The position numbers were made by a program, and so were the translations under genes. The notes beneath the pieces were generated by a model. The model ran no database searches. It was not told where the DNA came from and saw nothing but the letters and a program-made list of their open reading frames with translations. Below, piece after piece: positions 11,794 to 28,345 of a stretch of 64,000 nt of DNA; positions within the stretch are counted from its first letter, which is position 1; each line of letters starts with the position of its first letter. The DNA comes from an uncultured Eubacteriales bacterium. Lineage in GTDB: Bacteria > Bacillota > Clostridia > Christensenellales > Aristaeellaceae. The stretch is from the NCBI GenBank assembly GCA_902764875.1, contig CACWXP010000016.1, positions 1 to 64,000 on the forward strand, written 5' to 3'.

Positions 11794-11801
11794 GAGGAGA
11801 C

Positions 11802-13105: not shown

Positions 13106-13677
13106 TCCTTCTTGTGACCGGCGGCAGCGGCTGCGGAAAATCCACCTGGGCAGAAAAAGTCGTTGAAACAATGCCGAAAGAAAAGCGGATCTATGTCGCC
13201 ACCATGCAGGTGTACGACCGGGAATCCGAGCTGCGCGTCGCGAGGCACCGGGCCCAGCGGGCGGATAAGGGCTTTGAAACGCTTGAATGCCCAAAGGATC
13301 TGGAAAGCGCTCCGATTCCGGAAGGCAGCACGGTGCTGCTGGAAGACCTGGTGAACCTGACAGCCAACGAAATGTTTGACGGCGGGGACCCGGAACGGAT
13401 TGTTCCGGCGCTGAAGAACCTGGCGGTCCGGAGTCGGCATCTGATCCTGGTGACGAACGACCTGTTTTCCGACGGAATAACGTATTCGCCGTCAGTGCAG
13501 GCATATCTGCGGAAGCTGGCGGAGATCAACCGGCAGGCGGCGGAGATGGCGGACCGCGTCGTCGAAGTTGTCTATTCCATTCCAGTGATTCTACGCGATT
13601 GCCGCAGCCAGAGCTGCAGTATGGAGCATTCCATGATCAAAGATTCGGGCATATCCGTGAAAGGAGAAATGCCATGA
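13102..13677 (+). CDS. cobU: Adenosylcobinamide kinase/guanylyltransferase
   Basis: Phosphorylates adenosylcobinamide and transfers GMP to give adenosylcobinamide-GDP. The 191-aa protein has an intact P-loop GGSGCGKS (residues 7-14). The C-terminal half has the LILVTNDLFSDGITYSP and ADRVVEVVYSIPV segments typical of clostridial members. A second, shorter CobU-like gene lies two genes downstream, so the two may share the activities. Confidence 0.85.
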   Translation: MILLVTGGSGCGKSTWAEKVVETMPKEKRIYVATMQVYDRESELRVARHRAQRADKGFETLECPKDLESAPIPEGSTVLLEDLVNLTANEMFDGGDPERIVPALKNLAVRSRHLILVTNDLFSDGITYSPSVQAYLRKLAEINRQAAEMADRVVEVVYSIPVILRDCRSQSCSMEHSMIKDSGISVKGEMP

Positions 13678-14435
13678 CCGTGATCCGTTCCCTTCTGATT
13701 GCCTTTTCGACCTACTCGCGGATTCCCGTGCCGCAGGTGGAATGGACAGCGGAAAACCGCCGCTACAGCATGTGCTTTTTTCCGCTGGTCGGAGCCGTCA
13801 TCGGCCTTGTGATCTGGGGCTGGTTCGCTTTATGCGGAAAGATCGGGATCGGGGCTTTCCTACGCGGCGCGGCGGCGGCGCTGATTCCTCTGCTGATTTC
13901 CGGGGGCATCCATATGGACGGCTTCATGGATACCACGGACGCGCTGGCTTCCTGGCAGCCGAAGGAAAAGCGCCTGGAGATTCTGAAGGACAGCCACACC
14001 GGCGCCTTCGCGGTGATGGGCTGCGCGGGGATGCTCCTGCTTTCCGCCGCCCTGTATGCCGAGGCGGACCCGGCTAAAGCACCGCTGCTAATCTGCGTTT
14101 TCGTGCTGTCCCGGGCGCTGAGCGCCTGGACGCTGGTGACAATGAAAGGCGCCCGGCCGCAGGGCATGCTGGGCGACTTTTCCCGGGCGGCGCAGAAACG
14201 GGCGGTGACTGTCAGCGGCAGCATCTATGCCGTGTTGTGCATGGCAGTCTGGACTGCGCTGGGCGGATGGATCGCCGCGATGTGCGCCGCGGCGGCGGTA
14301 CTGTGCGTGCTTGCTTACCGGCGGATGGCCTACCGGCAGTTCGGCGGCGTGACGGGGGATCTGGCCGGATGGTTTTTGCAGGTGACGGAGCTGGCGTTGA
14401 CAGCGGTGATTGTGATCGGAGGGAAGCTGATTTGA
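13674..14435 (+). CDS. cobS: Adenosylcobinamide-GDP ribazoletransferase (cobalamin synthase)
   Basis: Membrane enzyme that joins adenosylcobinamide-GDP to alpha-ribazole(-phosphate). The 253-aa product starts MTVIRSLLIAFSTYSRIPVP and contains the family segments HMDGFMDTTDALAS and LKDSHTGAFAVMGC, followed by hydrophobic helices and GGVTGDLAGWFLQVTE. The ATG at 13674 overlaps the cobU stop by 4 bp and has an AAGGAG site. The open frame extends further upstream but inside cobU. Confidence 0.93.
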   Translation: MTVIRSLLIAFSTYSRIPVPQVEWTAENRRYSMCFFPLVGAVIGLVIWGWFALCGKIGIGAFLRGAAAALIPLLISGGIHMDGFMDTTDALASWQPKEKRLEILKDSHTGAFAVMGCAGMLLLSAALYAEADPAKAPLLICVFVLSRALSAWTLVTMKGARPQGMLGDFSRAAQKRAVTVSGSIYAVLCMAVWTALGGWIAAMCAAAAVLCVLAYRRMAYRQFGGVTGDLAGWFLQVTELALTAVIVIGGKLI

Positions 14436-14761
14436 AACTGTATATAGGCGGAGCCTGGCAGGGTCAGGATGTGCTCGCACGGCAGGAAAACCCGGAGGGC
14501 CCGTTTTTTGAGGATTTTCACGAAACCGTCCGTCGGGCGGTGCTTTCCGAGGGTCAGGATCCACGGGTGTTTGCCGAAGACTTTTGTGCTGCCCATCCGG
14601 ATGCCATCGTTATTGCCAACGAAGTCGGGGCCGGCGTAGTGCCGATGGCGGCGGAAGACCGGACGTTCCGGGAAGCCGTCGGGCGTGCGCTGTGCGTGAT
14701 TGCCGGGAAGGCTGAAACGGTTACGCGGTGCATATGCGGAATCGGGGTGCGGATCAAATGA
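14432..14761 (+). CDS. Short CobU-like protein lacking the P-loop lysine
   Basis: A 109-aa product read from a TTG start that overlaps the cobS stop. Its second half (IVIANEVGAGVVPMAAEDR, then FREAVGRALCVIAGKAETV) matches the C-terminal part of CobU guanylyltransferases. At the N-terminus the expected GGxxSGKS loop is GGAWQGQDVL, without the lysine, and the central third of CobU is missing. It may form a complex with the full-length CobU upstream or be a decayed duplicate. Continuous ATGA-type overlaps on both sides suggest it is still translated. An initiation codon other than TTG is not available nearby. Confidence 0.65.
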   Translation: MKLYIGGAWQGQDVLARQENPEGPFFEDFHETVRRAVLSEGQDPRVFAEDFCAAHPDAIVIANEVGAGVVPMAAEDRTFREAVGRALCVIAGKAETVTRCICGIGVRIK

Positions 14762-15309
14762 AATGGATTCTGATCCGGCACGGAATGACCCGGGGGAACA
14801 TGGAAAAGCGCTATGTCGGGTGCAGGACGGACGAATCGCTGTGCCCGGAGGGAATCGCGCAGCTGAAGCAAAACCTCTATCCCGCCGCGCGGCATGTGTA
14901 CACAAGCCCCATGCGCCGCTGTCTGGAAACAGCGGAGATTCTCTATCCGGGCATCCGGTCCGAAATTGTTCCGGATTTCCGGGAATGTGATTTCGGCGCG
15001 TTTGAGTATAAGAACTATCACGACCTGAACGGGCGGGAGGACTATCAGACGTGGATCGACTCCGGCGGCGAGCTTCCCTTTCCGGGCGGAGAAAGCCGGG
15101 CGGCCTTCGCGGCGCGCTGTGTCAGGGCGTTTGAACGGATCCGAAAAAAAGCGCCACAGGAAGACTGCGCGCTGATTGTTCACGGGGGGACGATCATGGC
15201 GCTCATGGAAGCCATGGCCCGGCCGAAAGGGAACTATTACGACTATCAGGTACAGAACGGCTGCGGATATATCCTGGAGGAAGACGGTTCCTCACAGGCA
15301 ATACCGTAG
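14758..15309 (+). CDS. cobC: Histidine phosphatase, probable alpha-ribazole phosphatase
   Basis: A 183-aa phosphoglycerate-mutase-like phosphatase. The RHG motif is at residues 7-9 (ILIRHGMT), followed by YTSPMRRCLETAEIL, the acid ECDFGAFE and the second histidine in LIVHGGTIMALM. As the last gene of the cobalamin operon it most likely dephosphorylates alpha-ribazole phosphate. The start overlaps the previous stop (ATGA). Specificity is inferred from context because histidine phosphatases are broad. Confidence 0.8.
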   Translation: MKWILIRHGMTRGNMEKRYVGCRTDESLCPEGIAQLKQNLYPAARHVYTSPMRRCLETAEILYPGIRSEIVPDFRECDFGAFEYKNYHDLNGREDYQTWIDSGGELPFPGGESRAAFAARCVRAFERIRKKAPQEDCALIVHGGTIMALMEAMARPKGNYYDYQVQNGCGYILEEDGSSQAIP

Positions 15310-15373: not shown

Positions 15374-16300
15374 ATGAATATTCTTCACCTGAAATACGCG
15401 GTGAGCATTGCGGAGTGCGGATCGATCAACAAGGCGGCGGAGGAGATCCACGTTGCCCAGCCCAATCTGAGCCGGATGATGAAGGATCTGGAGGCCGATC
15501 TGAACCTTGAGATCTTCCGCCGGAGCGCCCATGGAATGGAGCTTACGCCCGACGGGGAACGGTTCATCGCCCAGGCCCGGAAGATTCTGCAGCAGGTGGA
15601 TGAAATGGAGGAAATGTATAAAACCGGGAAGCCGGGCAGGCAGCGTTTTTCCATCTCCGTTCCACGGGCCAGCTATATCTCCGACGCTTTTACACGCTTT
15701 TCCAAATCGCTGGGCAGGGAAGACGCGGAAATCTTTTATCAGGAGACAAACGCGCAGCAGGCGATCAAAAACATTCTGGAAGTCGGGTACGATCTCGGGA
15801 TCATCCGCTATGCCAACAAGCACGACAAATACTTCAAACAGCTGCTGGAGGAGAAAAACCTTCACGGCGAACTGGTGGTGGAATTCACCTACTGCCTGAT
15901 CATGAGCGAGAAAAGCGAACTGGCAAAGAAAGAAACCATCACGACGGACGACCTGCACGGGTATATCCAGATCGCTCACGCGGATCCCTATGTTCCGTCC
16001 CTGCCCCTGTCCGCGGTCAAAAGGGATGAACTGCCGGATACTGCCAGAAGGATCTATGTGTTTGAGCGGGGGAGCCAGATGGATCTGCTTTCCGAAAACC
16101 CGGAAACATTTATGTGGGTTTCCCCCATTCCGACCCGTCTGCTCACTAATCTGCATCTGGTTCAGCGGAAATGCTGCGACAACAGCCGGAAATACAGGGA
16201 TGTGCTGATCCGGCGGAAGGATTATCAGCTGACTGCGCTGGACAAACAGTTTATTACCGAACTGACCCAATCGAGAAGAGAATGCCTGCCTGACCGGTGA
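15374..16300 (+). CDS. LysR-family transcriptional regulator
   Basis: A 308-aa LysR-type regulator. The N-terminal winged helix is MNILHLKYAVSIAECGSINK followed by AAEEIHVAQPNLSRMMKDLE, then a linker helix and a periplasmic-binding-protein-like effector domain (about 90-300). A good AGAGGAGAG site precedes the ATG. Targets are unknown: it lies between the cobalamin operon and rex, both on the same strand, and could act on the repeated TATCGATA sites that follow it. Confidence 0.85.
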   Translation: MNILHLKYAVSIAECGSINKAAEEIHVAQPNLSRMMKDLEADLNLEIFRRSAHGMELTPDGERFIAQARKILQQVDEMEEMYKTGKPGRQRFSISVPRASYISDAFTRFSKSLGREDAEIFYQETNAQQAIKNILEVGYDLGIIRYANKHDKYFKQLLEEKNLHGELVVEFTYCLIMSEKSELAKKETITTDDLHGYIQIAHADPYVPSLPLSAVKRDELPDTARRIYVFERGSQMDLLSENPETFMWVSPIPTRLLTNLHLVQRKCCDNSRKYRDVLIRRKDYQLTALDKQFITELTQSRRECLPDR

Positions 16301-16329
16301 GCAGATTCCCGTGAAATATCAGCCTTTTT

Positions 16330-16358
16330 GCCCCCTTGCGGCGGAAGGGCTTTTCTTT
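16330..16358 (+). terminator. Possible terminator after the LysR gene
   Basis: CCCTT-GCGGCGG-AAGGG (16333-16349) followed by CTTTTCTTT. The stem is short, but the placement just past the LysR stop fits a terminator. Confidence 0.4.
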
Positions 16359-16392
16359 ATCGATACAGTGATATCGATATGTATATATCGCA
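16358..16392. promoter_or_regulatory. Three TATCG repeats at 14-bp spacing upstream of rex
   Basis: TATCGATA at 16358 and 16372 and a related TATCGCAT at 16386 start exactly 14 bp apart. The last two also form the inverted repeat CGATAT-GTAT-ATATCG (16375-16390). A perfect TATAAT -10 element (16432-16437) with a poor -35 (TTCCCT, 16409-16414) lies downstream, as expected for a promoter needing an activator. The regulator is unknown; the LysR protein encoded upstream and Rex are candidates. Confidence 0.5.
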
Positions 16393-16461
16393 TATACCAT
16401 TTTGGTAATTCCCTCCGAAACCCATTCCGTTTATAATGCGTTTCGGAAGGAGGGAAGAGGG

Positions 16462-17094
16462 ATGCAAAGCAGCACGCTTTCCAGAGCGACCATGGGACGA
16501 CTGCCGCTGTACCTGCAGTTTGTGCGGACGGTGAAGACCGAAATGGTTTCATCCGCCGCTGTCGCAAGAGGCCTGGGTCTTGGCGAAGTGCAGGTGCGGA
16601 AGGATCTGGCCAGTATCTGTACGGCAGGAATGCCGAAAGTCGGCTATCCGTCCGACAGGCTGCGCGGCGACCTGGAAAAGGTACTGGGAATGCAGCATAC
16701 GGAACCGGCTGTGATCGTCGGCGCCGGCAGACTCGGAAGAGCGCTGATGGAATACGACGGCTTCCGGGAATACGGCATGGAGATTTCCGCGGCATTCGAT
16801 ATCAGCGGAACAGATGAATCCCATGAAGGCATTCCGATCCTCCAAATGGATCAGATGCGCCGATGGTGCCTGCTGCATGATGTTCATCTCGGGATCCTTG
16901 CCGTTCCCGCCGCATCGGCGCAGGAAGCAGCGAACGCGATGGTGAACAGCGGCATTACGGGAATCCTCAATTTCGCGCCGTATCCCGTGCATGTTCCGGA
17001 AACCGTCACGGTGCGGCAGGAGAACATCGCCCTTTCCCTGGCTTATCTGAAAATGACAGCCTGTACACCCGGTCAAATGAAGGAGGAAGATTGA
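16462..17094 (+). CDS. rex: Redox-sensing transcriptional repressor Rex
   Basis: A 210-aa Rex protein that senses NADH/NAD+ and represses fermentation genes when NADH is low. The N-terminal winged helix includes LPLYLQFVRTVKTEMVSSAA and GEVQVRKDLA. The Rossmann domain begins PAVIVGAGRLGRALM and contains AAFDISGTD and LGILAVPAASAQEAAN. The ATG at 16462 is preceded by a strong GGAAGGAGGG site. It lies one base before adhE, a classic Rex target, so the pair is probably one transcript and self-regulated. No textbook Rex box (TTGTTAA...TTAACAA type) is visible upstream. Confidence 0.92.
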   Translation: MQSSTLSRATMGRLPLYLQFVRTVKTEMVSSAAVARGLGLGEVQVRKDLASICTAGMPKVGYPSDRLRGDLEKVLGMQHTEPAVIVGAGRLGRALMEYDGFREYGMEISAAFDISGTDESHEGIPILQMDQMRRWCLLHDVHLGILAVPAASAQEAANAMVNSGITGILNFAPYPVHVPETVTVRQENIALSLAYLKMTACTPGQMKEED

Positions 17095-17095
17095 C

Positions 17096-19798
17096 ATGGA
17101 AAACAAACCCTATGAACTGACAGACAGCGTGGAGGCGCTGGAAGCCGCGATTGCCCGCGTCCGGGCGGCGCAGCGTCAGTACGCGACCTTCACCCAGGAG
17201 CAGGTGGACAGGATCTTCCTGGCCGCCGCAACTGCCGCCGATCAGGCGCGGATCCCCCTGGCGAAGATGGCTGTGGCGGAGACGGGCATGGGCGTTGTGG
17301 AAGATAAGGTGATCAAAAACCACTATGCCAGCGAATATATTTACAATGCATACCGCGATACCCGGACCTGCGGCGTGATTGAAGAGGACAAGTCGGCCGG
17401 GATCAAAAAGATCGCCGAGCCTATCGGCGTCGTTGCGGCGGTCATTCCCACCACCAATCCGACTTCCACAGCGATTTTCAAATCCCTGATCTGCCTGAAG
17501 ACCCGCAACGGGATCATCATCAGCCCGCATCCCCGGGCCAAAGGCGCGACGATCGCCGCGGCCAAAGTAGTTCTGGAAGCGGCTGTGAAAGCCGGCGCAC
17601 CGGAAGGCCTGATCTCCTGGATCGACGTGCCCAGCCTGGAAATGACCAACACGTTGATGAAGGAAGCGGATATCATCCTGGCCACCGGCGGCCCCGGCAT
17701 GGTCAAGGCGGCTTACTCCAGCGGAAAGCCCGCCCTGGGCGTCGGCGCCGGCAACGTGCCCGCGGTGATTGACGACAGCGCGGACATTATCCTGGCGGTC
17801 AACAGCATCATCCATTCCAAGACCTTTGACAACGGCATGATCTGTGCCTCCGAGCAGAGCGTGATCGTGCTCGACAGCATCTATGAGCAAGTGAAGCATG
17901 AATTTGCTGCCAGAGGATGCTGGTTCCTGCAGGGACAGGATCTGAACAAAGTGCGTAAGACCATCCTGATCAACGGCGGGCTGAACGCGAAGATCGTCGG
18001 CCAGAGCGCGTATAAGATCGCCCAGCTTTCTGGCGTGAAGGTTCCGGAAGGAACAAAGGTGCTGATCGGCGAAGTTGAATCCGTGGAGCTTTCCGAAGAA
18101 TTTGCCCATGAAAAGCTTTCTCCCGTGCTGGCTATGTACCGGGCGAAGGATCTGGAAGACGCTTTTGCCAAGGCGGACCGCCTGATTGCCGACGGCGGCT
18201 ATGGACATACGGCTTCCCTGTACATCAACACGCAGAAGAAACCCGATGTGCTGAACGATTTCGCTGAGCGGATGAAGACCTGCCGCATCGTCGTGAACAC
18301 GCCTTCGTCGCACGGCGGCATCGGCGATCTGTACAACTTCAAACTGCGGCCGTCCCTGACCCTGGGATGCGGCAGCTGGGGCGGTAACTCCGTTTCCGAA
18401 AATGTCGGGGTCAAACATCTGCTGAATATCAAAACCGTTGCTGAAAGAAGGGAGAACATGCTCTGGTTCCGCGCCCCGGAAAAGGTGTACATGAAGAAAG
18501 GCTGCCTGCCGGTGGCCCTGGATGAACTGAAAACCGTGATGGGAAAGAAAAGGGCTTTCGTGGTGACCGACAGCTTCCTGTATCACAACGGCAACACCAA
18601 GCCGATTACGGATAAGCTGGACGAAATGGGCATTGAGCACACCACCTTCTTCGATGTCGCTCCCGATCCCACGCTGGCGAGCGCCAAAGCCGGCGCGGAG
18701 CAGATGCGGATCTTCCAGCCCGATGTGATTATCGCCCTGGGCGGCGGCAGCGCCATGGACGCCGGAAAGATCATGTGGGTGCTGTATGAGCATCCAGAGG
18801 TCGACTTCATGGATATGGCCATGCGCTTCATGGATATCCGCAAACGGATTTATACTTTCCCGAAGATGGGAGAAAAAGCCTACTTTGTCGCCATTCCCAC
18901 TTCCGCCGGCACCGGCAGTGAAGTCACGCCCTTCGCGGTGATCACGGATGAGCAGACCGGAGTCAAGTATCCGCTGGCGGATTATGAGCTGCTGCCCAAG
19001 ATGGCGATTATCGATACGGACTTCCACATGACAGCCCCGAAGGGACTGACCGCGGCCAGCGGCATCGATGCGGTGACGCACGCGCTGGAAGCCTACGCTT
19101 CCATGATGGCCACCGATTACACCGACGGCCTGGCGATTCAGGCGCTGAAAGTGATCTTCGAATACCTGCCCCGCGCCTATGACGACGGGCAGACGGATGT
19201 GGAAGCCCGCGAAAAGATGGCCAACGCCGCCACGATGGCCGGCATGGCTTTCGCGAACGCGTTCCTGGGCGTATGCCATTCCATGGCGCATAAGCTCGGC
19301 GCCTTCCATCATATTCCCCACGGCGTTGCCAACGCGCTCATGATTGAGGAAGTGCTGCGGTTCAACGCGGCGGAAGTTCCCGCCAAGATGGGCACCTTCC
19401 CGCAGTACGATCATCCGCATACGCTGCGCCGCTATGCCGAAGTGGCGGAAGCCCTGGGCGTACAGGGAGAAAACGATCAGGAAAAACTGGAAGGCCTGAT
19501 CAAAATGATCAACGACCTGAAAGCCTATGTGGGGATTAAGCCCACCATCCGTGATTATGTTGCAGACGAAAAGGATTTCCTGGACAGGCTGGACGCCATG
19601 GTGGAACAGGCCTTTGACGATCAGTGCACCGGCGCGAATCCCCGCTATCCGCTGATGGAGGAAATCAGGCAGATGTACCTGAACGCCTATTACGGCGGAA
19701 AGCATTTCAAAGAGCTTCCCAAGCCCACCGATGCGGATATCGCAACCCGTGACGACGATCCGGTCAAGAAAGCCTATCGCCGGGGACAGAAGAAGTGA
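17096..19798 (+). CDS. adhE: Bifunctional acetaldehyde-CoA/alcohol dehydrogenase
   Basis: Converts acetyl-CoA to acetaldehyde and then ethanol, oxidising two NADH; usually forms cytoplasmic spirosome filaments. The 900-aa length is full. The N-terminal aldehyde dehydrogenase half has IPTTNPTSTAIFKSL, ISPHPRAKGAT and the catalytic cysteine in FDNGMICASEQSV (about residue 249). The C-terminal iron alcohol dehydrogenase half has GGGSAMDAGKIMW, TSAGTGSEVTPF and the metal-binding histidines in CHSMAHKLGAFHHIPHG. An AAGGAGGAAG site precedes the ATG. Expression is probably controlled by the preceding rex gene product. Confidence 0.97.
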   Translation: MENKPYELTDSVEALEAAIARVRAAQRQYATFTQEQVDRIFLAAATAADQARIPLAKMAVAETGMGVVEDKVIKNHYASEYIYNAYRDTRTCGVIEEDKSAGIKKIAEPIGVVAAVIPTTNPTSTAIFKSLICLKTRNGIIISPHPRAKGATIAAAKVVLEAAVKAGAPEGLISWIDVPSLEMTNTLMKEADIILATGGPGMVKAAYSSGKPALGVGAGNVPAVIDDSADIILAVNSIIHSKTFDNGMICASEQSVIVLDSIYEQVKHEFAARGCWFLQGQDLNKVRKTILINGGLNAKIVGQSAYKIAQLSGVKVPEGTKVLIGEVESVELSEEFAHEKLSPVLAMYRAKDLEDAFAKADRLIADGGYGHTASLYINTQKKPDVLNDFAERMKTCRIVVNTPSSHGGIGDLYNFKLRPSLTLGCGSWGGNSVSENVGVKHLLNIKTVAERRENMLWFRAPEKVYMKKGCLPVALDELKTVMGKKRAFVVTDSFLYHNGNTKPITDKLDEMGIEHTTFFDVAPDPTLASAKAGAEQMRIFQPDVIIALGGGSAMDAGKIMWVLYEHPEVDFMDMAMRFMDIRKRIYTFPKMGEKAYFVAIPTSAGTGSEVTPFAVITDEQTGVKYPLADYELLPKMAIIDTDFHMTAPKGLTAASGIDAVTHALEAYASMMATDYTDGLAIQALKVIFEYLPRAYDDGQTDVEAREKMANAATMAGMAFANAFLGVCHSMAHKLGAFHHIPHGVANALMIEEVLRFNAAEVPAKMGTFPQYDHPHTLRRYAEVAEALGVQGENDQEKLEGLIKMINDLKAYVGIKPTIRDYVADEKDFLDRLDAMVEQAFDDQCTGANPRYPLMEEIRQMYLNAYYGGKHFKELPKPTDADIATRDDDPVKKAYRRGQKK

Positions 19799-19812
19799 GA
19801 GGAGGAAGAGAC

Positions 19813-20562
19813 ATGAATCTGGATCGTGTTATTGCAGTGCGCAACACCAAGACCGTCTACCGCGACGGCGATCGCTGCCTGAAGGTTTTCAATCCCGAGT
19901 ATTCCAAGGCGGATGTGCTGAACGAGGCGCTGAATCAGGCCCGGGTGGAGGAGATCGGCCTGCATATCCCGAAAATCCTGGAAGTGACCATGATCGACGG
20001 GAAATGGACGATCGTATCCGAGTATATTGCCGGGAAGACGCTGTCTCAGCTGATGGAGGAGCATCCGGAAAAGAAGAAAGAGTATATCGAACAGCTGGTG
20101 GATCTGCAGCTGGAAGTGCAGAGCAAGACCTGTCCGCTGCTGACCAGGCTGAGAGACAAGATGAACCGCAAGATCAGCGAAGCGGACCTGGACGCCACGG
20201 TGCGGTATAACCTGCATACCCGGCTGGAGGGTATGCCCAAACATAACAAGGTGTGCCACGGGGATTTCCGTCCGTCCAATATCATCATCACGGAAGACGG
20301 AACACCCTATATCCTGGACTGGAGCCATGTGACCCAGGGAAATGCTTCCGCCGACGCCGCCCGCACCTATCTGCTGTTCTGGCTGAAGGGCGATATCGAA
20401 GGCGCCGAGACCTATCTGGATCTGTTCTGCAAAAAGAGCGGAACGGCAAAGACCTATGTCCAGAGCTGGATGCCGATCGTGGCCGCCAGCCAGTCCGTGA
20501 AGGGCAATGAAAAAGAACGGGAATTCCTGCTCAGCTGGGCGAACGTTGTGGAATATCAATAA
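19813..20562 (+). CDS. Aminoglycoside-phosphotransferase-fold kinase
   Basis: A 249-aa protein with an APH/choline-kinase fold: a phosphate-loop region NTKTVYRDGDRCLKVF, the catalytic HGD with the metal-binding asparagine (H149, D151, N156 in HGDFRPSNIII), and the Asp of the DFG-equivalent in YILDWSHV (D169). All key residues are present, so it is probably an active small-molecule or protein kinase. It is not clearly an antibiotic resistance enzyme. It sits between adhE and the H2-sensor/phosphatase genes, which suggests a signalling or metabolite-kinase role. The ATG at 19813 has a GAGGAGGAAGAG site; an in-frame GTG at 19795 lies within the adhE stop. Confidence 0.75.
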   Translation: MNLDRVIAVRNTKTVYRDGDRCLKVFNPEYSKADVLNEALNQARVEEIGLHIPKILEVTMIDGKWTIVSEYIAGKTLSQLMEEHPEKKKEYIEQLVDLQLEVQSKTCPLLTRLRDKMNRKISEADLDATVRYNLHTRLEGMPKHNKVCHGDFRPSNIIITEDGTPYILDWSHVTQGNASADAARTYLLFWLKGDIEGAETYLDLFCKKSGTAKTYVQSWMPIVAASQSVKGNEKEREFLLSWANVVEYQ

Positions 20563-20574
20563 TTCGAGGGGGAT

Positions 20575-20820
20575 ATGAAAATGAAAATGACGGTTTGTAT
20601 CGGTTCTTCCTGCCATATCAAAGGATCCCGCCAGGTGGTGGAACAGCTGCAGGCACTGATTGCCGAAAACAATCTGGGAGACAAGATTGAACTGGGCGGG
20701 ACCTTCTGCATGGGCAGGTGCCAGCAGGGCGTCTGCGTGACGGTGGATGATGAAGTCTTTTCGGTTTCGCCGGAAACCACCCATGCTTTTTTTGAAAAGA
20801 ATGTTCTGGCGAAACTGTGA
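20575..20820 (+). CDS. Thioredoxin-like 2Fe-2S ferredoxin (NuoE/HydC-like)
   Basis: An 81-aa thioredoxin-fold 2Fe-2S protein with the cysteine pattern CIGSSC (residues 8-13) and CMGRCQQGVC (45-54), as in the NuoE-type C-terminal domain. Such proteins pass electrons between NADH- or ferredoxin-linked partners and hydrogenases. The GAGGGGG site is 2 nt from the first ATG (20575) and 8 nt from the second (20581), so the true start is probably 20581. It precedes the sensory hydrogenase gene. Confidence 0.8.
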   Translation: MKMKMTVCIGSSCHIKGSRQVVEQLQALIAENNLGDKIELGGTFCMGRCQQGVCVTVDDEVFSVSPETTHAFFEKNVLAKL

Positions 20821-20828
20821 TCAGGACG

Positions 20829-20866
20829 GCACCGGGCGCTCGCTTCGTCCGGTGCAACCCTTTTTT
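20829..20866 (+). terminator. Attenuator-like stem-loop inside the hydrogenase cassette
   Basis: GCACCGG (20829-20835) and CCGGTGC (20849-20855) form a perfect 7-bp stem with a 13-nt loop. CAACCC is followed by six T from 20861. The structure lies between the 2Fe-2S gene and the sensory hydrogenase gene, so it could be a partial terminator that lowers expression of the sensor and phosphatase. Confidence 0.5.
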
Positions 20867-20896
20867 GAATGATTACATAACGGGGGAGGGACAGGC

Positions 20897-22573
20897 ATGC
20901 AGAACTGCCTGATGCTGAAGAAATCCAACTGTAAAAACTGCTACAAATGTATCCGGCACTGTCCGGTGAAATCCATCCGTTTTTCCGGGAACCAGGCGCA
21001 TATTATCGGGAACGAATGCATTCTCTGCGGACACTGTTTTGTTGTCTGCCCCCAGAACGCAAAAGAAATTGTGGATGAGACCGAAAAGGTGAAGGTGCTG
21101 ATCCAGAGCGGCGCCCCGGTCATCGCGTCGCTTGCACCTTCCTTTATCGCTAATTACGACGGCGTCGGCATCGAAAGCATGCGGGAAGGCCTGCAGAAGC
21201 TGGGATTCACGGATGCGGAAGAAACCGCGCTGGGCGCGACCCAGGTCAAACGGGAATATGACCGCATGCTGAAGGAAGAGGACAGGGACATTCTGATTTC
21301 CTCCTGCTGCCACAGCATCAATCTGCTGATCCAGAAGTATTTCCCGCGGGAACTGGAGTATCTGGCGGATGTGCTGTCGCCGATGCAGGCCCACTGTGCC
21401 GATATCAAAAAGAGAATGCCGGAAGCCAAGACCGTGTTTATCGGTCCCTGCGTTGCGAAGAAGGATGAAGCGGCTTATTACGGCGATACCGTAGACGCGG
21501 TGCTGACCTTTGAGGAACTGACGAACTGGCTGAAAGCGGAAGGGATCGAACTGAAACCGGACGTGAAAGCTGATCCGCGAAGCCGCGCCAGGTTTTTCCC
21601 GACGACCGGCGGCATTCTGAAAACGATGCGCTGTGATTCGCCTCAGTATACCTACATGGCGTTGGACGGCGTTGAAAACTGCATTGCGGCGCTGCGGGAT
21701 ATTGAGAACGGGAAGATTCATCACTGCTTCATCGAAATGAGCGCCTGCACGGGCGGATGCATCGGCGGTCCGGTGATGGAAAAGTACCACCGCAGCCCTG
21801 TGCGGGATTATCTGGCGGTGGCTTCGTTCGCGGGAGAGAAGGATTTTGACGTGGATCAACCGGAAAACCGCGATCTGCGGAAACGCTTTGAACCCATTGA
21901 TCAGCGGGCGGCCGTGCCGAGCGAGGACGAGATTCGCGATATCCTGCGGCAAATGGGCAAATTCAAACCCAGCCAGGAGCTGAACTGCGGCTCCTGCGGA
22001 TACAACTCCTGCCGGGAAAAAGCGGTTGCGATCTATCAGGGAAAAGCGGAGATTTCCATGTGCCTGCCTTACCTGATGGACAAGGCGGAGAATATGACAG
22101 ACGCGATTTCCCGCAACTCCCCCAACGGCATCCTGATGCTCAACGACCGGCTTGAAGTTCATCAGATCAACCCGATGATGCTTCAGTTCCTGAATCTCCG
22201 GGACGCGGGCGCCGTACTGGGAGACCAGGTCGTGCGGATTCTGGATCCCACGCCTTTCCTGAAAGTGCAGCAGAGCAAGCGCGGCATCTATAACGAACGG
22301 ATTTACCTGGCGGAATACAACCGGTATGTGGAACAGACGATTGTGCCGGCGGAAGAAGGCCGGATGCTCCTGTGCATCATGCGCGACGTGACCGCCGAGG
22401 AGGAAGCGCGCCGCGAGAAAGAAGAGATCAGCCGCCAGACGGTGGAAGTGGCCGACAAGGTGGTTGACAAACAGATGAGAATCGTGCAGGAGATTGCTTC
22501 ACTGCTCGGCGAAACCGCCGCGGAGACCAAGATCGCCCTGTCCAAGCTGAAGGAGTCGATTGCCAATGAATGA
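20897..22573 (+). CDS. hydS: Putative sensory [FeFe] hydrogenase (group C, HydS-like) with PAS domain
   Basis: The 558-aa protein has two 4Fe-4S motifs (C12/15/18/22 and C41/44/47/51). An H-cluster domain follows with L1 SSCCHS (C137, C138), L2 IGPCVAKK (C185) and L3 EMSACTGGCIGG (C284, C288). Next come a four-Cys CGSCGYNSC...C segment (364-389), a PAS domain (about 400-495) and a C-terminal coiled coil. L1 lacks the TSCCPxW proline and tryptophan of catalytic enzymes. This architecture is that of the predicted H2-sensing group C hydrogenases, which are linked to signalling proteins. The following gene encodes a SpoIIE phosphatase and overlaps by 8 bp, so the sensor probably controls that enzyme. 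Confidence 0.88.
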   Translation: MQNCLMLKKSNCKNCYKCIRHCPVKSIRFSGNQAHIIGNECILCGHCFVVCPQNAKEIVDETEKVKVLIQSGAPVIASLAPSFIANYDGVGIESMREGLQKLGFTDAEETALGATQVKREYDRMLKEEDRDILISSCCHSINLLIQKYFPRELEYLADVLSPMQAHCADIKKRMPEAKTVFIGPCVAKKDEAAYYGDTVDAVLTFEELTNWLKAEGIELKPDVKADPRSRARFFPTTGGILKTMRCDSPQYTYMALDGVENCIAALRDIENGKIHHCFIEMSACTGGCIGGPVMEKYHRSPVRDYLAVASFAGEKDFDVDQPENRDLRKRFEPIDQRAAVPSEDEIRDILRQMGKFKPSQELNCGSCGYNSCREKAVAIYQGKAEISMCLPYLMDKAENMTDAISRNSPNGILMLNDRLEVHQINPMMLQFLNLRDAGAVLGDQVVRILDPTPFLKVQQSKRGIYNERIYLAEYNRYVEQTIVPAEEGRMLLCIMRDVTAEEEARREKEEISRQTVEVADKVVDKQMRIVQEIASLLGETAAETKIALSKLKESIANE

Positions 22574-23735
22574 CCTGTGCTGCGAAATCGGCTTTAAGAG
22601 CATCAATCATGCCGGGGAACAGCTGTGCGGAGACCATGTGGACGTTGTGGAACAGGAGGACGGCTCCACCATCATCGTGCTGGCCGACGGGCTGGGCAGC
22701 GGTGTGAAAGCCAGCATTCTGTCCACGCTGACCAGCAAGATTATTTCCACCATGCTGGCTGCCGGCCTGTCCCTGGAGGAATGCGTGGAAACCATCGCGG
22801 CGACGCTTCCCGTCTGCTCGGTCCGGGGCGTTGCCTATTCCACCTTCACCATTCTGAGGATCATGCAGAATCGTACCGCCGAAATCATTCAGTATGACAA
22901 TCCGCATGTGATTCTGCTCCGGAACGGTGAGAACTTCGACTATCCGAAACAGGAAACTTCCATCGGAGGGAAGCAGATCTTCCGTTCGATGATCCGTCTG
23001 CAGGAGGACGACGTCTTTATTGCCATGAGCGACGGATGCCCGCACGCCGGGATCGGGATCGGCTACAATTTCGGCTGGAAACGGGAAGACATCATTTCCT
23101 TTATGGAAGCGATGAATCTTTGCGGATATTCCGCCAAAGTGCTTTCCACGATGCTGGTGGATGAATGCAACCGGCTTTACGGCGGGGAACCGGGGGACGA
23201 CGCCACCTCCTGTGTGGTCCGGATGCGGAAGCGGGTGCCGATGAACATGCTTTTCGGTCCGCCCAGCAACCGGGACGACGCGAACCGCATGATGAGCCTT
23301 TTCTTTGCCAAGGAAGGAAAGCACATTATCTGCGGCGGAACGACATCCTCCATCGCGGCAAAGTGGCTGAACAAGCCTTTGCGTCCTTCCCTGAAGTTTG
23401 ACGGCGACATTCCGCCGATTGCCACGCTGGAAGGCGTGGACCTGGTGACAGAAGGCGTGATTACCGTCAACCGCGTCGTGGAATATGCCCAGGACTATAT
23501 TTCCGAAAACCGGAGATACGACGAATGGAGCAATCAGAAGGACGGCGCTTCCCTGATCAGTCAGCTGCTGTTTGAGGAAGCGACGGATATCAATTTCTAC
23601 GTGGGCCGGGCCATTAATCCCGCACATCAGAATCCGGATCTGCCGATCAATTTCAGCATCAAGATGAATCTGGTGCAGGAATTAAGCGCGGCTTTGCAAA
23701 AGATGGGGAAGCGCATCAAGGTCAGTTACTTCTGA
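22566..23735 (+). CDS. SpoIIE-family (PP2C-type) serine/threonine phosphatase
   Basis: A 389-aa protein whose N-terminal 225 residues are a PP2C/SpoIIE phosphatase. The metal-binding aspartates lie in VLADGLGSGVKAS, AMSDGCPHAG and GDDATSCVVRM. The roughly 160-residue C-terminal domain (from about GPPSNRDDANRMM to the end) is unassigned but soluble. The ATG at 22566 overlaps hydS by 8 bp; a TTG six bases upstream is less likely. In known group C hydrogenase clusters such a phosphatase is the presumed output. No anti-sigma or STAS partner is present in the window, so its substrate is unknown. Confidence 0.85.
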   Translation: MNDLCCEIGFKSINHAGEQLCGDHVDVVEQEDGSTIIVLADGLGSGVKASILSTLTSKIISTMLAAGLSLEECVETIAATLPVCSVRGVAYSTFTILRIMQNRTAEIIQYDNPHVILLRNGENFDYPKQETSIGGKQIFRSMIRLQEDDVFIAMSDGCPHAGIGIGYNFGWKREDIISFMEAMNLCGYSAKVLSTMLVDECNRLYGGEPGDDATSCVVRMRKRVPMNMLFGPPSNRDDANRMMSLFFAKEGKHIICGGTTSSIAAKWLNKPLRPSLKFDGDIPPIATLEGVDLVTEGVITVNRVVEYAQDYISENRRYDEWSNQKDGASLISQLLFEEATDINFYVGRAINPAHQNPDLPINFSIKMNLVQELSAALQKMGKRIKVSYF

Positions 23736-23748
23736 GGGAGGAACCGTT

Positions 23749-25170
23749 ATGCATAAGTTTGATACAAAAGTTCAGCATCTGAAATACAAGGTGCTGCGGG
23801 AAGTGGCCCGCCATGCCTGGAACGACACGCTGCTGGAAAACGTGATGGATATTCCCAAAACCATCGTGCCGGGGAAAGTACCCACCATGCGCTGCTGCGT
23901 GCATAAGGAACGGGCGATCCTGGCGGAACGGGTGAAGCTGGCCATGGGCGGCGGCCAGGGAAACAACATCATTCAGGTGATTGACATCGCCTGCGACGAC
24001 TGTCCCGCCAGCGGCTATCAGGTGACGGATTCATGCCGGGGCTGCCTGGCGCACCGGTGCGAGGACGCCTGCAAGCGCGGCGCGATCTCCTTTGACCACA
24101 AGCATGAGGCACATATCGACAAAACCAAATGTGTGGAATGCGGGATGTGCGCGAAGGTCTGTCCGTACAGCGCCATTGTGAACCGGAAACGCCCCTGCCA
24201 GAATGCCTGCAAGATCAAGGCGATTTCCATCAGCGAAGACAATGCCGCCAAAATCGACGATGAAAAATGCATTCAGTGCGGCGCGTGCGTATATCAGTGC
24301 CCGTTCGGCGCGATTTCCGACCGCTCCTATATCCTGAATGTGATTGATATGCTGAAACGGAGCGAAAACAACAGCAAGTATAAGGTTTACGCGCTGGTTG
24401 CTCCGGCCATCGGAAGCCAGATGCACTATGCCAAACTGGGCCAGGTGATTACCGGCATCAAGAAGCTGGGATTCTATACCGTTGTGGAAGTCGCGCTGGG
24501 CGCGGATATGGTGGCGCAGGCAGAATCCAGGGAACTGGCGGAAAAAGGATTCCTGACCAGTTCCTGCTGCCCGGCCTTTGTCCGCTATGTGAAAACGGCG
24601 TTCCCCGCGCTTGCCCAGTATATTTCCCACAATCTGTCGCCCATGGGCACGATTGCCAAATATATCAAGGAGCATGAACCGAACGTGAAGACGGTATTCA
24701 TCGGTCCGTGCACCGCGAAAAAAGCCGAAGTGCAGCTGGACGAAGTGAAACCCTATGTGGATGCCGCCATCACCTTTGAAGAACTGCAGGCGCTGTTCGA
24801 CAGCCGGGATATTGATCTGACCGCGCTGGAAGAGGACGTGCTGGACAACGCTTCCTATTTCGGCCGGATCTTTGCCCGGAGCGGCGGCCTTTCCGACGCG
24901 GTGGCCGAAGGACTGAAGGAGCAGCAGCTGGATGCGTTTGAATTGAAAGCATGCACCTGCGACGGCATTGAAGAATGCAAGGCGGCGCTGCTGCGCAAGA
25001 GCAAAAATGTGCTCGACGCGAATTTCATCGAGGGAATGGCCTGCATCAGCGGCTGCATCGGCGGCGCCGGCAATCTGACGCACGGCGAGAAGAACAAGGC
25101 GGCGGTTGACCAATACGGACGGGAAGCCCTGGAAAAAACCATCGCGGATGCTGTATCGGTGTTGAAATAA
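23749..25170 (+). CDS. [FeFe] hydrogenase, group B (monomeric, ferredoxin-type)
   Basis: A 473-aa protein with an N-terminal extension of about 80 residues, several cysteine clusters (CDDC, CRGC, CEDAC, then CVECGMCAKVCP and CIQCGACVYQCP) and a complete H-cluster domain. The ligands are L1 SSCCPAF (C273, C274), L2 IGPCTAKK (C321) and L3 EGMACISGCIGG (C432, C436). The layout fits group B [FeFe] hydrogenases, thought to couple ferredoxin to proton reduction in fermenters. The maturases HydE, HydF and HydG are not in this window and must lie elsewhere for activity. It is the last gene of the rex-to-hydrogenase run, 13 bp after the phosphatase gene. Confidence 0.9.
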   Translation: MHKFDTKVQHLKYKVLREVARHAWNDTLLENVMDIPKTIVPGKVPTMRCCVHKERAILAERVKLAMGGGQGNNIIQVIDIACDDCPASGYQVTDSCRGCLAHRCEDACKRGAISFDHKHEAHIDKTKCVECGMCAKVCPYSAIVNRKRPCQNACKIKAISISEDNAAKIDDEKCIQCGACVYQCPFGAISDRSYILNVIDMLKRSENNSKYKVYALVAPAIGSQMHYAKLGQVITGIKKLGFYTVVEVALGADMVAQAESRELAEKGFLTSSCCPAFVRYVKTAFPALAQYISHNLSPMGTIAKYIKEHEPNVKTVFIGPCTAKKAEVQLDEVKPYVDAAITFEELQALFDSRDIDLTALEEDVLDNASYFGRIFARSGGLSDAVAEGLKEQQLDAFELKACTCDGIEECKAALLRKSKNVLDANFIEGMACISGCIGGAGNLTHGEKNKAAVDQYGREALEKTIADAVSVLK

Positions 25171-25216: not shown

Positions 25217-25981
25217 CTATTCTTTCCACTGAGACAGCATTTCCCGCATCCAGGCGAACACATCCATATCATAGACCTGCCGGAGGTTTTCCGGCGTCAT
25301 GACTTCGCCGATCAGGCCCTTGGAGACGGTTTTTCCGTGATCCATCAGGATGGCATGGGTGCCGTAGCGCCGGGCCAGGCTCAGGTCGTGGACCACGGAC
25401 AGCACGGCGCGTCCCGGTTCCCTCAGCCATTGCTGAATCAGAGAGAAAATATGCTGCTGGTATTTCAGGTCCAGGTGATTGGCCGGTTCATCCAGAATCA
25501 GCACCTGCGGGTTCTGCGAAAAGACCTGGGCCAGGAAAACCCGCTGGGTTTCGCCTCCGGAGAGCGTCAGCATACTGGCGCGGCGCAGCTCCGTGAGGCC
25601 CGTCATTTCCAGGGCCTTTTCCACCTGCTGTTTCCCCTGATCGTCCGAACCTGAAAACAGGCCGGACTTCCAGGCATATCTTCCGAGACCGACCACTTCG
25701 TCGACGGTGTAGGCATAGCCTACACTGTTTTTTTGCGACAGGACGCCGATTCGCTGCGCCAGCTGCGCCGGTTTCATCGCGCGGAGTTCCTGCTCCTCCC
25801 AACGGATGGAGCCGGTATAGGGAACGCCCTGGGCGATGGCTTCGATCAAAGTGGATTTGCCTGCCCCGTTGGGGCCGGCGAGCATCAGCCACTGTCCTTC
25901 TTCAAGATGAAAGGAAAGATCGTCTACGACGGTGGCGGCGCCGTAGCGAACCGAGATATGATCTCCCCGCAGCATTTTCAT
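25217..25981 (-). CDS. btuD: Cobalamin ABC transporter ATP-binding protein (BtuD-like)
   Basis: A 254-aa ABC ATPase of the FecE/BtuD type. Walker A is GPNGAGKST, the signature is LSGGETQRV, Walker B is VLILDEPANHLDL, and the switch histidine is in VVHDLSLA. It energises the permease encoded immediately upstream, whose stop overlaps this start (ATGA at 25981-25978). Specificity for cobalamin is inferred from the riboswitch ahead of the operon; by sequence alone it could be a heme or siderophore importer. Confidence 0.85.
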   Translation of the reverse strand: MKMLRGDHISVRYGAATVVDDLSFHLEEGQWLMLAGPNGAGKSTLIEAIAQGVPYTGSIRWEEQELRAMKPAQLAQRIGVLSQKNSVGYAYTVDEVVGLGRYAWKSGLFSGSDDQGKQQVEKALEMTGLTELRRASMLTLSGGETQRVFLAQVFSQNPQVLILDEPANHLDLKYQQHIFSLIQQWLREPGRAVLSVVHDLSLARRYGTHAILMDHGKTVSKGLIGEVMTPENLRQVYDMDVFAWMREMLSQWKE

Positions 25982-27024
25982 CTTCCCCCTTTCCTGGTTC
26001 TGTAGAAGATGATGACGAAAGCAACCGCACCGACGATGGACGTGACCACGCCGATGGGCAGCTCGATCGGACTGAGCAGGGTCCGGGCGGTCAGATCCGC
26101 CAGCAGGAGGAAGATGGCGCCGGAAAAGAGGGAAGCCGGCAGGAGCCGTTTATGGTTCGGACCCACCAGCATCCGGGCGATGTGGGGCATGATGAGACCT
26201 ACAAAGCTGACAGTGCCGGCGATGGAGACGCAGACCCCCGTCAGGACGGAGACGGTGATCAGGACAATCAGTTTGACGCGCCGGATATTCACGCCGATAT
26301 GCCGGGCGTTTTCCTCGCCGATGGCGAAGGCGTTCAGTTCGGGGCTGAAACGGATCAGGATGCCGCCGCAGAGGATCAGCGCCCCGCAAAGCAGCAGGGC
26401 CTGGTCATAGTTTACGCCGGAGAAGGAACCCATGGTCCAGAAACTGAGCGACCGGGTGTGATCATTGGAAAAGGTGATGACCAGCGAAATAATGCTGGAA
26501 ATGAACATGGTGAAGATGACGCCGATCAGGATAATGCTGGTGGTGGCCAGCGAATGATCCAGCAGATACGCCAATGAAAGAATCAGCATCAGGGAGCCGA
26601 AGGCAAACACCATCGCGGAGACCATGACACCGCCGTAGGCAAAACCGGGAAGGGTGAAACCGGCCGCGATGGCGATGATCGCGCCCAGGGCTGCCCCGGA
26701 GGAAACACCCATGGTGGATCCGTCGGCCAGCGGATTCCGGAGCAGCCCCTGCATGGCCGCTCCGCTGATCGATAAAGCCGCCCCGGCCAGCGTGACACAC
26801 AGCACGCGGGGCAGACGAACATTCAATATGATATTCTTGGCGATATTTTCGGGAACCGGCAGTCCCCACAGCGCGTTCCAGACGGCCGTGACCGTATCGG
26901 AAAGCTTAATCGGAACACTGCCCACGCAGATGCAGAGGATCATCGTCATCAGCAGGGCGGCGGCCAGCGCCAGATAGGTTAAAGGAGAAAAGCGCTCTCT
27001 TTTCAGCAGTCGTGCATCCTTCAT
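25978..27024 (-). CDS. btuC: Cobalamin ABC transporter permease (BtuC/FecCD-like)
   Basis: A 348-aa polytopic FecCD-family permease. Signatures include RLPRVLCVTLAGAALSISGA, GLLRNPLADGSTMGVSSGAA and SFVGLIMPHIARMLVG, with about nine or ten hydrophobic helices. It is the second gene after the riboswitch and lies downstream of a strong intercistronic hairpin. Vitamin B12 as substrate is inferred from the riboswitch. Confidence 0.87.
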   Translation of the reverse strand: MKDARLLKRERFSPLTYLALAAALLMTMILCICVGSVPIKLSDTVTAVWNALWGLPVPENIAKNIILNVRLPRVLCVTLAGAALSISGAAMQGLLRNPLADGSTMGVSSGAALGAIIAIAAGFTLPGFAYGGVMVSAMVFAFGSLMLILSLAYLLDHSLATTSIILIGVIFTMFISSIISLVITFSNDHTRSLSFWTMGSFSGVNYDQALLLCGALILCGGILIRFSPELNAFAIGEENARHIGVNIRRVKLIVLITVSVLTGVCVSIAGTVSFVGLIMPHIARMLVGPNHKRLLPASLFSGAIFLLLADLTARTLLSPIELPIGVVTSIVGAVAFVIIFYRTRKGGR

Positions 27025-27041
27025 GAAAACCTCTCAGAAAG

Positions 27042-27070
27042 CCGGGGAGCTGAAAGATTCAGCTCCCCGG
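27042..27070 (-). terminator. Perfect 13-bp intercistronic hairpin between btuF and btuC
   Basis: CCGGGGAGCTGAA and TTCAGCTCCCCGG are exact inverted repeats separated by three bases. Only a short pyrimidine stretch follows in the direction of transcription, so it is more likely an mRNA-stabilising or attenuating structure than a full terminator. It would raise the binding-protein level over the permease. Confidence 0.65.
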
Positions 27071-27081
27071 GAAACAGGAAA

Positions 27082-27996
27082 TCAGGCGGCAGGAGCTTCC
27101 TCCGCTTCGGTTCCGTTCACGAAATTAAACAGCTCAATGGCGGCTTCCTTCAGTCTCGGACCGGGACGAACCATGTTGTTCAGATCGTCGCTGTAGACCT
27201 TCTTGTTTTTGATTGCGGTGATATCGGTCCAGCCGTTACGGGAAAGAATTTCCTCCACGCCTTCGCTGCCCATGCCGGACATGAGCACGATGAAATCAGG
27301 ATTGCGCTCGATGACCTGCTCTTCGCTGGGGGCGACCCAGGCATCTTCCTGATCCGCGAAGATGTTGGTCAGACCGCAGATTTCGGCCAGCTCGTTCAGG
27401 TAGCTGCTCTTGCCGGCACTGTACAGACCCCAGGACGGCGGGGAGATTTCAAAATAGATGCTCTTTGCTTCGCCGGAGACCTTCGATTTGATATCGTCAA
27501 AGGTTGCCTGCATGTCGGCGATCAGGGCTTCCGCCTCGGTATCCTTCGCCATCAGCGCGCCGATGAGCCGGATGGAGGTGTAGACGCTGGCGATATCGGA
27601 GGTGGTGCTGACAACGACCTTCACGCCGTTTTCTTCCAGCTGCTTGACCTGGTCTTCGCTCTGGCTCATATCCGTCATCACAACGACCTGGGGATTCAGC
27701 GCCAGGATCTCTTCCACGTTTGTCTCCTTGCCGGACTGCACCTTGGGCAGACTGGTGATGGAGGCGGGATAGTCGCACCACTGGCCGATGCCGACCAGGG
27801 CTTCTTCGCAGCCGAGGGCGCAGATGATCTCGCAGTCGGAAGGCTGCATCGCCACGATGCGGGTTGCAGGCTCGGAGAGGGTGATTTCACGGCCGTACAT
27901 ATCCGTGACCGTGATGGCGGTCCCTTCAGCCAGGGACGCGGCGACGCTGCAAACCATCAGCAACGCCAGGAACAGGGAAACCAGTTTTTTGGACAT
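27082..27996 (-). CDS. btuF: Cobalamin ABC transporter substrate-binding protein (BtuF-like)
   Basis: A 304-aa secreted helical-backbone binding protein. It has a signal peptide of about 23 residues ending SLAEG with no convincing lipobox, then ITVTDMYGREITLSEPATRI. NVEEILALNPQVVVMTD and the central long helix are typical of class III binding proteins. How it is held at the cell surface without a lipid anchor is unclear. The first gene after a cobalamin riboswitch; its ribosome-binding site GGAGG (28009-28005) lies 8 nt from the ATG and is part of an alternative pairing scheme. Confidence 0.88.
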   Translation of the reverse strand: MSKKLVSLFLALLMVCSVAASLAEGTAITVTDMYGREITLSEPATRIVAMQPSDCEIICALGCEEALVGIGQWCDYPASITSLPKVQSGKETNVEEILALNPQVVVMTDMSQSEDQVKQLEENGVKVVVSTTSDIASVYTSIRLIGALMAKDTEAEALIADMQATFDDIKSKVSGEAKSIYFEISPPSWGLYSAGKSSYLNELAEICGLTNIFADQEDAWVAPSEEQVIERNPDFIVLMSGMGSEGVEEILSRNGWTDITAIKNKKVYSDDLNNMVRPGPRLKEAAIELFNFVNGTEAEEAPAA

Positions 27997-28061: not shown

Positions 28062-28139
28062 TCTGAGGAACACCAAACAGACCGGCACGACCGGTACCGT
28101 CAGTTGATCCTAACCCCAGAGGATCCTGCGATCACAGTG

Positions 28140-28345
28140 CAAACAGGTCTCCCGACTTGGCTTCATCCTGCCCGGAGCTCCTTCTCACGGCCTGGGCCGC
28201 AATGGATGAAACATGCGTTTCGTGCTCCGTCGTCTGCTTCACGGTTTCCGGGAAAGTCCGGGAATTGCACCCGGTTCCCATGGCGCGCGGATGGCTCCGC
28301 AGCGCCGCGCGTTTCCGCGCAGATGCACCGGCTATTCATTTGTCG
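28140..28345 (-). ncRNA. Cobalamin (AdoCbl-type) riboswitch
   Basis: Read on the minus strand, the leader begins with GCCGGTGCATCTG (28333-28321). It continues with the core GGGAACCGGGTGCAATTCCC and a following CGGAC, and ends with AAGTCGGGAGACCTG (28158-28144). These match the order of the conserved blocks of cobalamin riboswitches, including the near-universal GGAGACCTG end. The classic central ACTGTAA block is not clear. It lies about 145 nt upstream of btuF, so cobalamin excess should lower btuFCD expression. Confidence 0.88.

Follow-up and report, generated by a model that had tools for sequence, protein, structure and literature searches.

The 64,000-nucleotide stretch of DNA analysed here, referred to as the window, comes from an uncultured Eubacteriales bacterium (contig CACWXP010000016.1, positions 1 to 64,000) and carries a cassette that encodes a LysR-type regulator, a Rex protein, the bifunctional aldehyde/alcohol dehydrogenase AdhE, a kinase of the aminoglycoside phosphotransferase (APH) fold, a [2Fe-2S] protein, a sensory-type [FeFe] hydrogenase (HydS), a SpoIIE-type phosphatase and a further [FeFe] hydrogenase (HydB). 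The choice of fermenting organisms between acetate plus H2 and ethanol under H2 build-up is an old question that concerns interspecies H2 transfer, rumen methane and biofuel yield, and published work already names the cassette as a candidate for this control. The present comparison contributes two points: the kinase is reassigned to AdhE, and a second branch of Rex proteins gains a candidate operator.

The cassette and its second copy

The seven genes from rex to hydB have the order and strand given in an earlier note on this DNA; all are on the plus strand and free of internal stops. The lysR gene in front belongs to the same unit, which consists of eight genes: the two copies of the cassette in this genome resemble each other at the DNA level from 15374, where lysR begins, up to 25151 at the end of hydB. 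The features are listed below; numbers beginning with L denote loci and those beginning with G denote genomes used in the comparison.

15374..16300, plus strand: lysR, LysR-type regulator, first gene of the unit (PF00126 helix-turn-helix; start of the similarity between the two copies)
16321..16351, plus strand: terminator-like hairpin 3' of lysR (consensus scan only)
16360..16377, plus strand: palindrome TCGATACAGTGATATCGA, proposed operator of the cassette Rex (motif comparison of upstream regions)
16400..16411, plus strand: conserved element TTTTGGTAATTC, shared with the upstream regions of L007, L014, L079, L117 and L116
16432..16437, plus strand: putative -10 box TATAAT (by eye; overlaps an inverted repeat at 16410-16451)
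16462..17094, plus strand: rex, cassette subfamily (NF003994; Rex tree)
17096..19798, plus strand: adhE, bifunctional aldehyde/alcohol dehydrogenase with C-terminal tail (NF010378)
19813..20562, plus strand: APH-fold kinase (PF01636, alignment, predicted structure; alternative GTG start at 19795)
20575..20820, plus strand: thioredoxin-like [2Fe-2S] protein of 81 residues (PF01257)
20829..20855, plus strand: terminator-like hairpin between the two halves (terminator scan, shuffle test)
20897..22573, plus strand: hydS, sensory-type [FeFe] hydrogenase with PAS and a conserved C-terminal helix
22566..23735, plus strand: spoIIE, SpoIIE-type phosphatase (PF07228), C-terminal domain without a Pfam match
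23749..25170, plus strand: hydB, group B [FeFe] hydrogenase, HydA2/HfsD-like (TIGR04105)

Rex (NF003994, 205 bits against a cut-off of 130), AdhE (NF010378, 1387 against 951) and the group B hydrogenase (TIGR04105, 565 against 450) score above the curated cut-offs, which are also exceeded by the matches to APH (PF01636), PF01257, the [FeFe] large domain, FeS and SpoIIE (PF07228). Translation of the kinase starts more likely at the ATG at 19813 than at the GTG at 19795, and that of the phosphatase likewise more probably at the ATG at 22566. The putative -10 box was not picked up in a promoter scan of the window.

Of the 80 nearest named loci, 18 show all eight genes in this order; contig ends cut many of the remaining ones. 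Where the flank is long enough, in 48 named loci, lysR lies upstream of the kinase gene in 34. In the 72 named loci that can be judged on both sides of the kinase gene, 59 have adhE upstream and spoIIE downstream, 9 adhE only, 3 spoIIE only and one neither. The gene order is far from chance. Several genomes occur twice among the loci (L038/L152; L035/L150; L063/L166), so that repeats are possible in the counts of named loci, AdhE comparisons, gene gaps and loci-wide palindromes given here and below.

A second full cassette of eight genes was found on another contig of the same genome (L007 on contig C4, approximately 5551-15279, minus strand). The proteins of the two copies are 56% (Rex), 87-90% (AdhE), 77% (kinase), 78% ([2Fe-2S] protein), 81% (HydS), 87% (SpoIIE) and 88% (HydB) identical. 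In copy 2, adhE is 47 nucleotides shorter at the interdomain linker, which leaves the aldehyde dehydrogenase and alcohol dehydrogenase halves as separate open reading frames (ORFs) in different frames. The G+C content is 56.5% in the window and 53.3% in L007. In the Rex tree the two copies fall into different subclades, the window Rex with that of L014, from the same genus, and the Rex of copy 2 with those of L138 and L079, which points to duplication long ago or to transfer, provided that neither contig is foreign.

The hairpin at 20829-20855 (-21.9 kcal/mol, z -2.4, equalled in stability by 5 of 200 shuffles) separates the first four genes, counted from rex, from the last three. Terminator-like sites are no rarity here: the region has 16 of them, against 10.4 expected. 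A hairpin at this seam is also present in L014; its role as a conserved attenuator was rejected since copy 2 carries the hairpin one gap earlier.

The kinase gene and its partners

The kinase gene was counted in an order-level sample of 200 genomes and in a second, class-wide sample, whose 291 genomes are for the most part new; the genomes in both samples are related to one another, and Fisher p-values overstate their independence. In the order sample, the kinase occurs at 67 sites in 63 genomes (35 of 102 genera) and the SpoIIE phosphatase at 70 sites in 68 genomes. Directly upstream of the kinase gene lies adhE, at 51 of these 67 sites, at 56 of 68 new sites class-wide and in 74 of 79 cases among the nearest named loci. 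Window-type AdhE is present in 61 of 65 class-wide kinase genomes; the class-wide counts leave out three kinase genomes already in the order sample and merge one broken site. Class-wide genomes that have only the 47-51% type of AdhE contain the kinase in 1 of 41 cases. In the order sample, window-type AdhE accompanies the kinase in 59 of the 63 genomes (odds ratio 104) and SpoIIE in 41 (odds ratio 7.6). With gene ends taken from tblastn, the gap between adhE and the kinase gene has a median of -3 bp and does not exceed 30 bp in 91 of 99 pairs; between hydS and spoIIE the median is -8, with 30 bp or less in 101 of 105. Gap counts around the [2Fe-2S] gene paired repeated genes, and only these two counts were used. 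By these counts, the kinase tracks AdhE more tightly than SpoIIE, and the phosphatase tracks HydS.

Some observations do not fit an assignment of the kinase to AdhE. At 16 of the 67 sites there is no adjacent adhE; in L141, L144, L148 and G127 the kinase gene lies beside hydS-spoIIE-hydB without an adjacent adhE, and in L052 it is found with hydB alone.

The kinase protein contains an APH domain with the conserved Lys, HGD...N and Asp. In an alignment of 32 kinases, K24, E38, H149-G-D151, N156 and D169 are invariant, and we take them to have catalytic-type roles. The predicted structure is confident (predicted local distance difference test, pLDDT, 92.9); the closest structures are those of APH(3')-Ia and the choline kinase LicA, followed by homoserine and choline/ethanolamine kinases. 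The Pkinase model of Ser/Thr protein kinases reaches 21.4 bits on the window kinase, below its cut-off of 31.7, and the RIO1 model, which describes a family of atypical protein kinases, 31.4 bits, above its cut-off of 22. By its modelled fold the kinase is nearest to small-molecule kinases, and a protein target is only putative. It may be that the enzyme phosphorylates a small molecule without any part in signalling, for example to dispose of or repair a by-product of AdhE (acetaldehyde or coenzyme A chemistry), and this possibility deserves serious attention without being the one we favour: a shared fold proves no function, the RIO1 model is above its cut-off, and the kinase gene often lies in one operon with that of a phosphatase.

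The earlier note named AdhE or a hydrogenase as the possible phosphorylated target; none was found. A conserved Ser or Thr that would mark the kinase-linked copies of AdhE was rejected, the top differences being lineage-like substitutions such as those at T184 or S603, replaced by Ser or Thr. A C-terminal tail of at least 15 residues (15-40, often Lys-rich) is present in 45 of 86 kinase-linked AdhE proteins and in none of 22 unlinked ones, in a sample that leans to close relatives and besides which 3 further kinase-linked AdhE proteins lack the anchor motif. The tail was rejected as a mark of the kinase since approximately half of the linked AdhE proteins do without it and no constant Ser or Thr was seen. 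The AdhE of E. coli likewise ends in a lysine-rich tail.

The reversible kinase-phosphatase circuit of the earlier note is close to a published proposal for Ruminococcus albus, as far as the available passages of PMC5707799 and PMC6776011 go. There, HydS would pass the H2 signal via PAS to an adjacent Ser/Thr kinase (PMC5707799), and kinase and phosphatase would form a matched pair that controls one regulator of the operon, LysR or Rex. The two genes are commonly neighbours, so that the refutation set in the earlier note, rare adjacency in other genomes, does not apply: spoIIE lies within 10 kb on the same strand at 31 of the 67 kinase sites of the order sample and downstream of the kinase gene in 63 of 73 named loci, and kinase and SpoIIE occur together in 41 of the 200 genomes where 21.4 are expected. 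What makes a matched pair unlikely in our view is the distribution of the kinase where one of the presumed partners is missing. Sorted by spoIIE within 8 kb downstream, the 67 sites comprise 29 with adhE and spoIIE, 22 with adhE only, one with spoIIE only and 15 with neither; 13 of the 22 sites with adhE only are in genomes without a SpoIIE match and 9 in genomes with SpoIIE elsewhere. Four of them (in G002, G101, G112 and G158) end at a contig edge within 1 kb downstream, and 11 of those fetched have approximately 8 kb downstream without hydS or spoIIE. (Fetching covered 20 sites of each kind, out of 36 unlinked kinase sites, 29 linked ones outside the genome of the window and 39 with SpoIIE only.) Moreover, among the 124 genomes without window-type AdhE, SpoIIE is found in 23 and the kinase in 4, and the kinase gene is coupled to adhE rather than to hydS, spoIIE being the gene coupled to hydS. 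The neighbourhood of the two genes is thus supported, whereas the pairing of the kinase with the phosphatase is not supported in the form given in the earlier note.

The same note described HydS as a sensory hydrogenase with PAS, which holds for the family: the PAS model PF00989 is matched at E <= 0.01 in 18 of 20 aligned HydS proteins, and the [FeFe] large domain PF02906 in all 20. In the window protein alone, PAS is below the cut-off (PAS_8, 16.3 bits against 21.8, E 0.009). HydS of the window carries the motifs SSCCH, GPCVAK and ACTGGC, presumably the H-cluster cysteine motifs; the first reads Cys-Cys-His (SSCCH) in this and several related proteins and ACP in the 40%-identity type (L153, L017, L019, L031). 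All 20 aligned members, the most distant at 38% identity, retain the C-terminal block QEIASLLGET-x-AETK. Together with the overlap of hydS and spoIIE, this makes the block a good candidate for the site where HydS contacts SpoIIE. In the N-terminal SpoIIE/PP2C domain of the phosphatase, D23, D41, D156, D211 and D212 are invariant in 37 proteins. Structure matches mostly cover residues 2-223. The conserved C-terminal domain (residues 226-389, approximately 165 residues; 23238-23732) gave no Pfam match with the piece from the window.

The palindrome and its Rex branch

The Rex proteins of the cassettes have the Rex family domains in common with canonical Rex, of the Clostridium thermocellum Rex_2471 type, from which they are set apart in the Rex tree by a branch with 100/100 support. 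The classical Rex box of canonical Rex, TTGTTAA-N4-TTAACAA, is absent from the cassette promoter of the window and was rejected there, since no match was found near 16462 with three mismatches allowed (best score 8/12).

A different palindrome, TCGATA-N6/7-TATCGA, was derived from 47 upstream regions (45 distinct) and scored in the same regions over its 12 half-site bases with a spacer of 5-7. It reaches at least 11/12 in 41 regions (0.17 on average in shuffles) and is exact in 27 (none in shuffles); the classical box reaches at least 10/12 in 9 (1.5 in shuffles). The exact palindrome occurs at two places only in the 3.27-Mb genome of the window, and both are cassette promoters. Counting the window, 2.28 Mb of loci contain 84 sites with a score of 11 or more: 48 precede rex, 7 adhE or a monofunctional relative and one lysR; one is at hydS and 27 are elsewhere. 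Order-wide, the exact palindrome is less specific. Among the 75 exact sites listed, which include ones already seen, 19 have spacer 6, and 11 of these precede rex, adhE or the spoIIE operon; the other 56 have spacer 7, and 2 of them do so. In G002, the kinase-adhE genes and spoIIE are on separate stretches with a palindrome upstream of each, the second 2.2 kb before spoIIE.

In a held-out test, the palindrome was found at 11/12 or better within 250 bp upstream of 11 of 20 rex genes of the same branch (0.05 expected) and of 0 of 20 canonical rex genes (1 of 20 at 10/12), whereas the classical box at 10/12 or better preceded 4 and 6 of the 20, respectively (0.3 expected each). The 20 Rex proteins were hand-picked at 39-48% identity outside the fetched loci, two of the genes (L176, L192) lie near an adhE-like gene or hydS-spoIIE, and the expectations stem from simple letter shuffles. 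Rex genes of the cassette branch in L178, L181, L182, L184 and L188 are followed by ORFs that resemble, by eye, malate dehydrogenase and fumarase. Of 70 distinct adhE loci that extend at least 2.5 kb upstream, 36 have an adjacent rex and 34 do not; the palindrome precedes the operon in 31 of the former and 3 of the latter. This test reuses known loci, the half without rex not having been used in finding the motif. From these distributions we infer that the palindrome serves as the operator of the cassette Rex branch.

Binding by the LysR-type protein or another regulator is improbable as the explanation of the palindrome: in many lysR-bearing cassettes it does lie approximately 80 to 110 bp before rex, the usual position for LysR-type activators, and some of these cassettes also have a classical Rex box, yet next to adhE it accompanies lysR without rex in 1 of 16 cases and rex without lysR in 13 of 17, and it also precedes same-branch rex genes outside the cassettes, some ahead of the malate dehydrogenase- and fumarase-like ORFs (by eye).

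A number of findings speak against Rex as the protein that binds there or against its general role. Nine of the 20 held-out rex genes score below 11/12, five adhE loci with rex carry no palindrome, and in L044, L055 and L130 the palindrome precedes adhE without an adjacent rex; in G141 it does so in a genome without a Rex match at E <= 1e-12. The classical box overlaps the -10 box in some lineages (L126, L106, L102), and the palindrome of the window lies 85 bp before rex and not over the -10 box. Since 34 of the 70 adhE loci, about half, have no adjacent rex, input through Rex is not universal. Loci with LysR or nothing known in place of rex (e.g. L087, L092, L098 and L147) are mostly without the palindrome, so that adhE must be controlled in another way there.

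Proposed function and known relatives

We lean slightly towards reading the cassette as an operon for overflow to ethanol and H2 when the reducing pressure is high, with NADH and H2 as inputs and with the kinase as an accessory of AdhE, which retains from the earlier note the operon of a redox- and H2-responsive type. The cassette Rex would repress its own operon via the palindrome and release it when NADH is high, and LysR may add to this control. HydS would sense H2 at the H-cluster and pass its state via PAS and the C-terminal helix to SpoIIE. The outputs would be AdhE, which converts NADH to ethanol, and the ferredoxin hydrogenase. With its gene coupled to adhE, the APH-fold kinase would most likely oppose the phosphatase at a single regulated step of the ethanol branch. 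To be set against such a single operon is the internal terminator-like hairpin, which may uncouple the halves of the cassette.

A more specific version is a two-level switch, in which a separate Rex branch has an operator of its own, is reserved in this genome for the twin ethanol cassettes and answers to NADH at transcription, and an AdhE-dedicated kinase and the HydS-driven SpoIIE set the activity of AdhE post-translationally according to H2. All of this together is rather unlikely to be correct as it stands; if it were, the kinase would represent a new class of AdhE-modifying kinases.

The surroundings of the cassette contain genes of another kind. A cobalamin riboswitch (RF00174, 65.5 bits) at 28125-28331 on the minus strand of the window lies upstream of minus-strand ORFs for a binding protein, a permease and an ATPase (25217-27996, by eye), and the ORFs at 12083-15309 appear by eye to be genes for assembly of the cobalamin nucleotide loop.

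The cassette is not new and is, by gene content and order, a member of a published kind. In C. thermocellum, the hfs region Cthe_0422-0431, compared here through published locus numbers (PMC3848806), contains rex, adhE, APH, a small hypothetical, an Fe-S and a SpoIIE gene, and then genes of the NADH dehydrogenase type and for an Fe-only hydrogenase, in contrast to the single group B hydrogenase of the window. According to the same passages, rex, the aminoglycoside phosphotransferase, the hypothetical protein, the Fe-S cluster protein and SpoIIE drop together after furfural, adhE lying in the region. The Rex encoded there is Rex_1799, a second, distant Rex with identities of 36 and 34% to two characterized members of the family; the passages of PMC8457756 report a motif for the canonical Rex_2471 and none for Rex_1799. 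No paper on an AdhE-linked kinase or on the palindrome TCGATA-N6/7-TATCGA was found in listings of open-licence papers.

In the hfsABCD operon of Thermoanaerobacterium, HfsB corresponds to HydS with PAS, HfsC to the serine phosphatase and HfsD is HydA2-like. As described, the operon contains no kinase, adhE or rex, and the lack of a kinase argues against the function proposed above. Deletion of hfsB (hydS) has been linked to higher adhE expression and more ethanol (PMC5707799). This speaks for a link between HydS and ethanol formation, but HydS would act negatively in Thermoanaerobacterium saccharolyticum. The work of Zheng 2014 is taken here through PMC5707799, PMC11837493 and PMC13277313.

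The closest relative is R. albus 8 (L116), whose order lysR-rex-adhE-APH-2Fe2S-hydS-spoIIE-hydB is identical to that of the window and whose palindrome scores 11/12. For the R. albus hydS-hydA2/aad unit, H2 sensing and control of ethanol formation were proposed, as they are here. According to PMC6776011, a cluster of eight R. albus genes is down 111-fold in co-culture; it includes those for a sensory hydrogenase, a ferredoxin hydrogenase and a bifunctional alcohol/aldehyde dehydrogenase. The same paper assigns the hydrogenase of R. albus 7 to group A1, whereas that of the window matches the group B model. The genome of the window differs from that of R. albus 8 in having two copies of the cassette.
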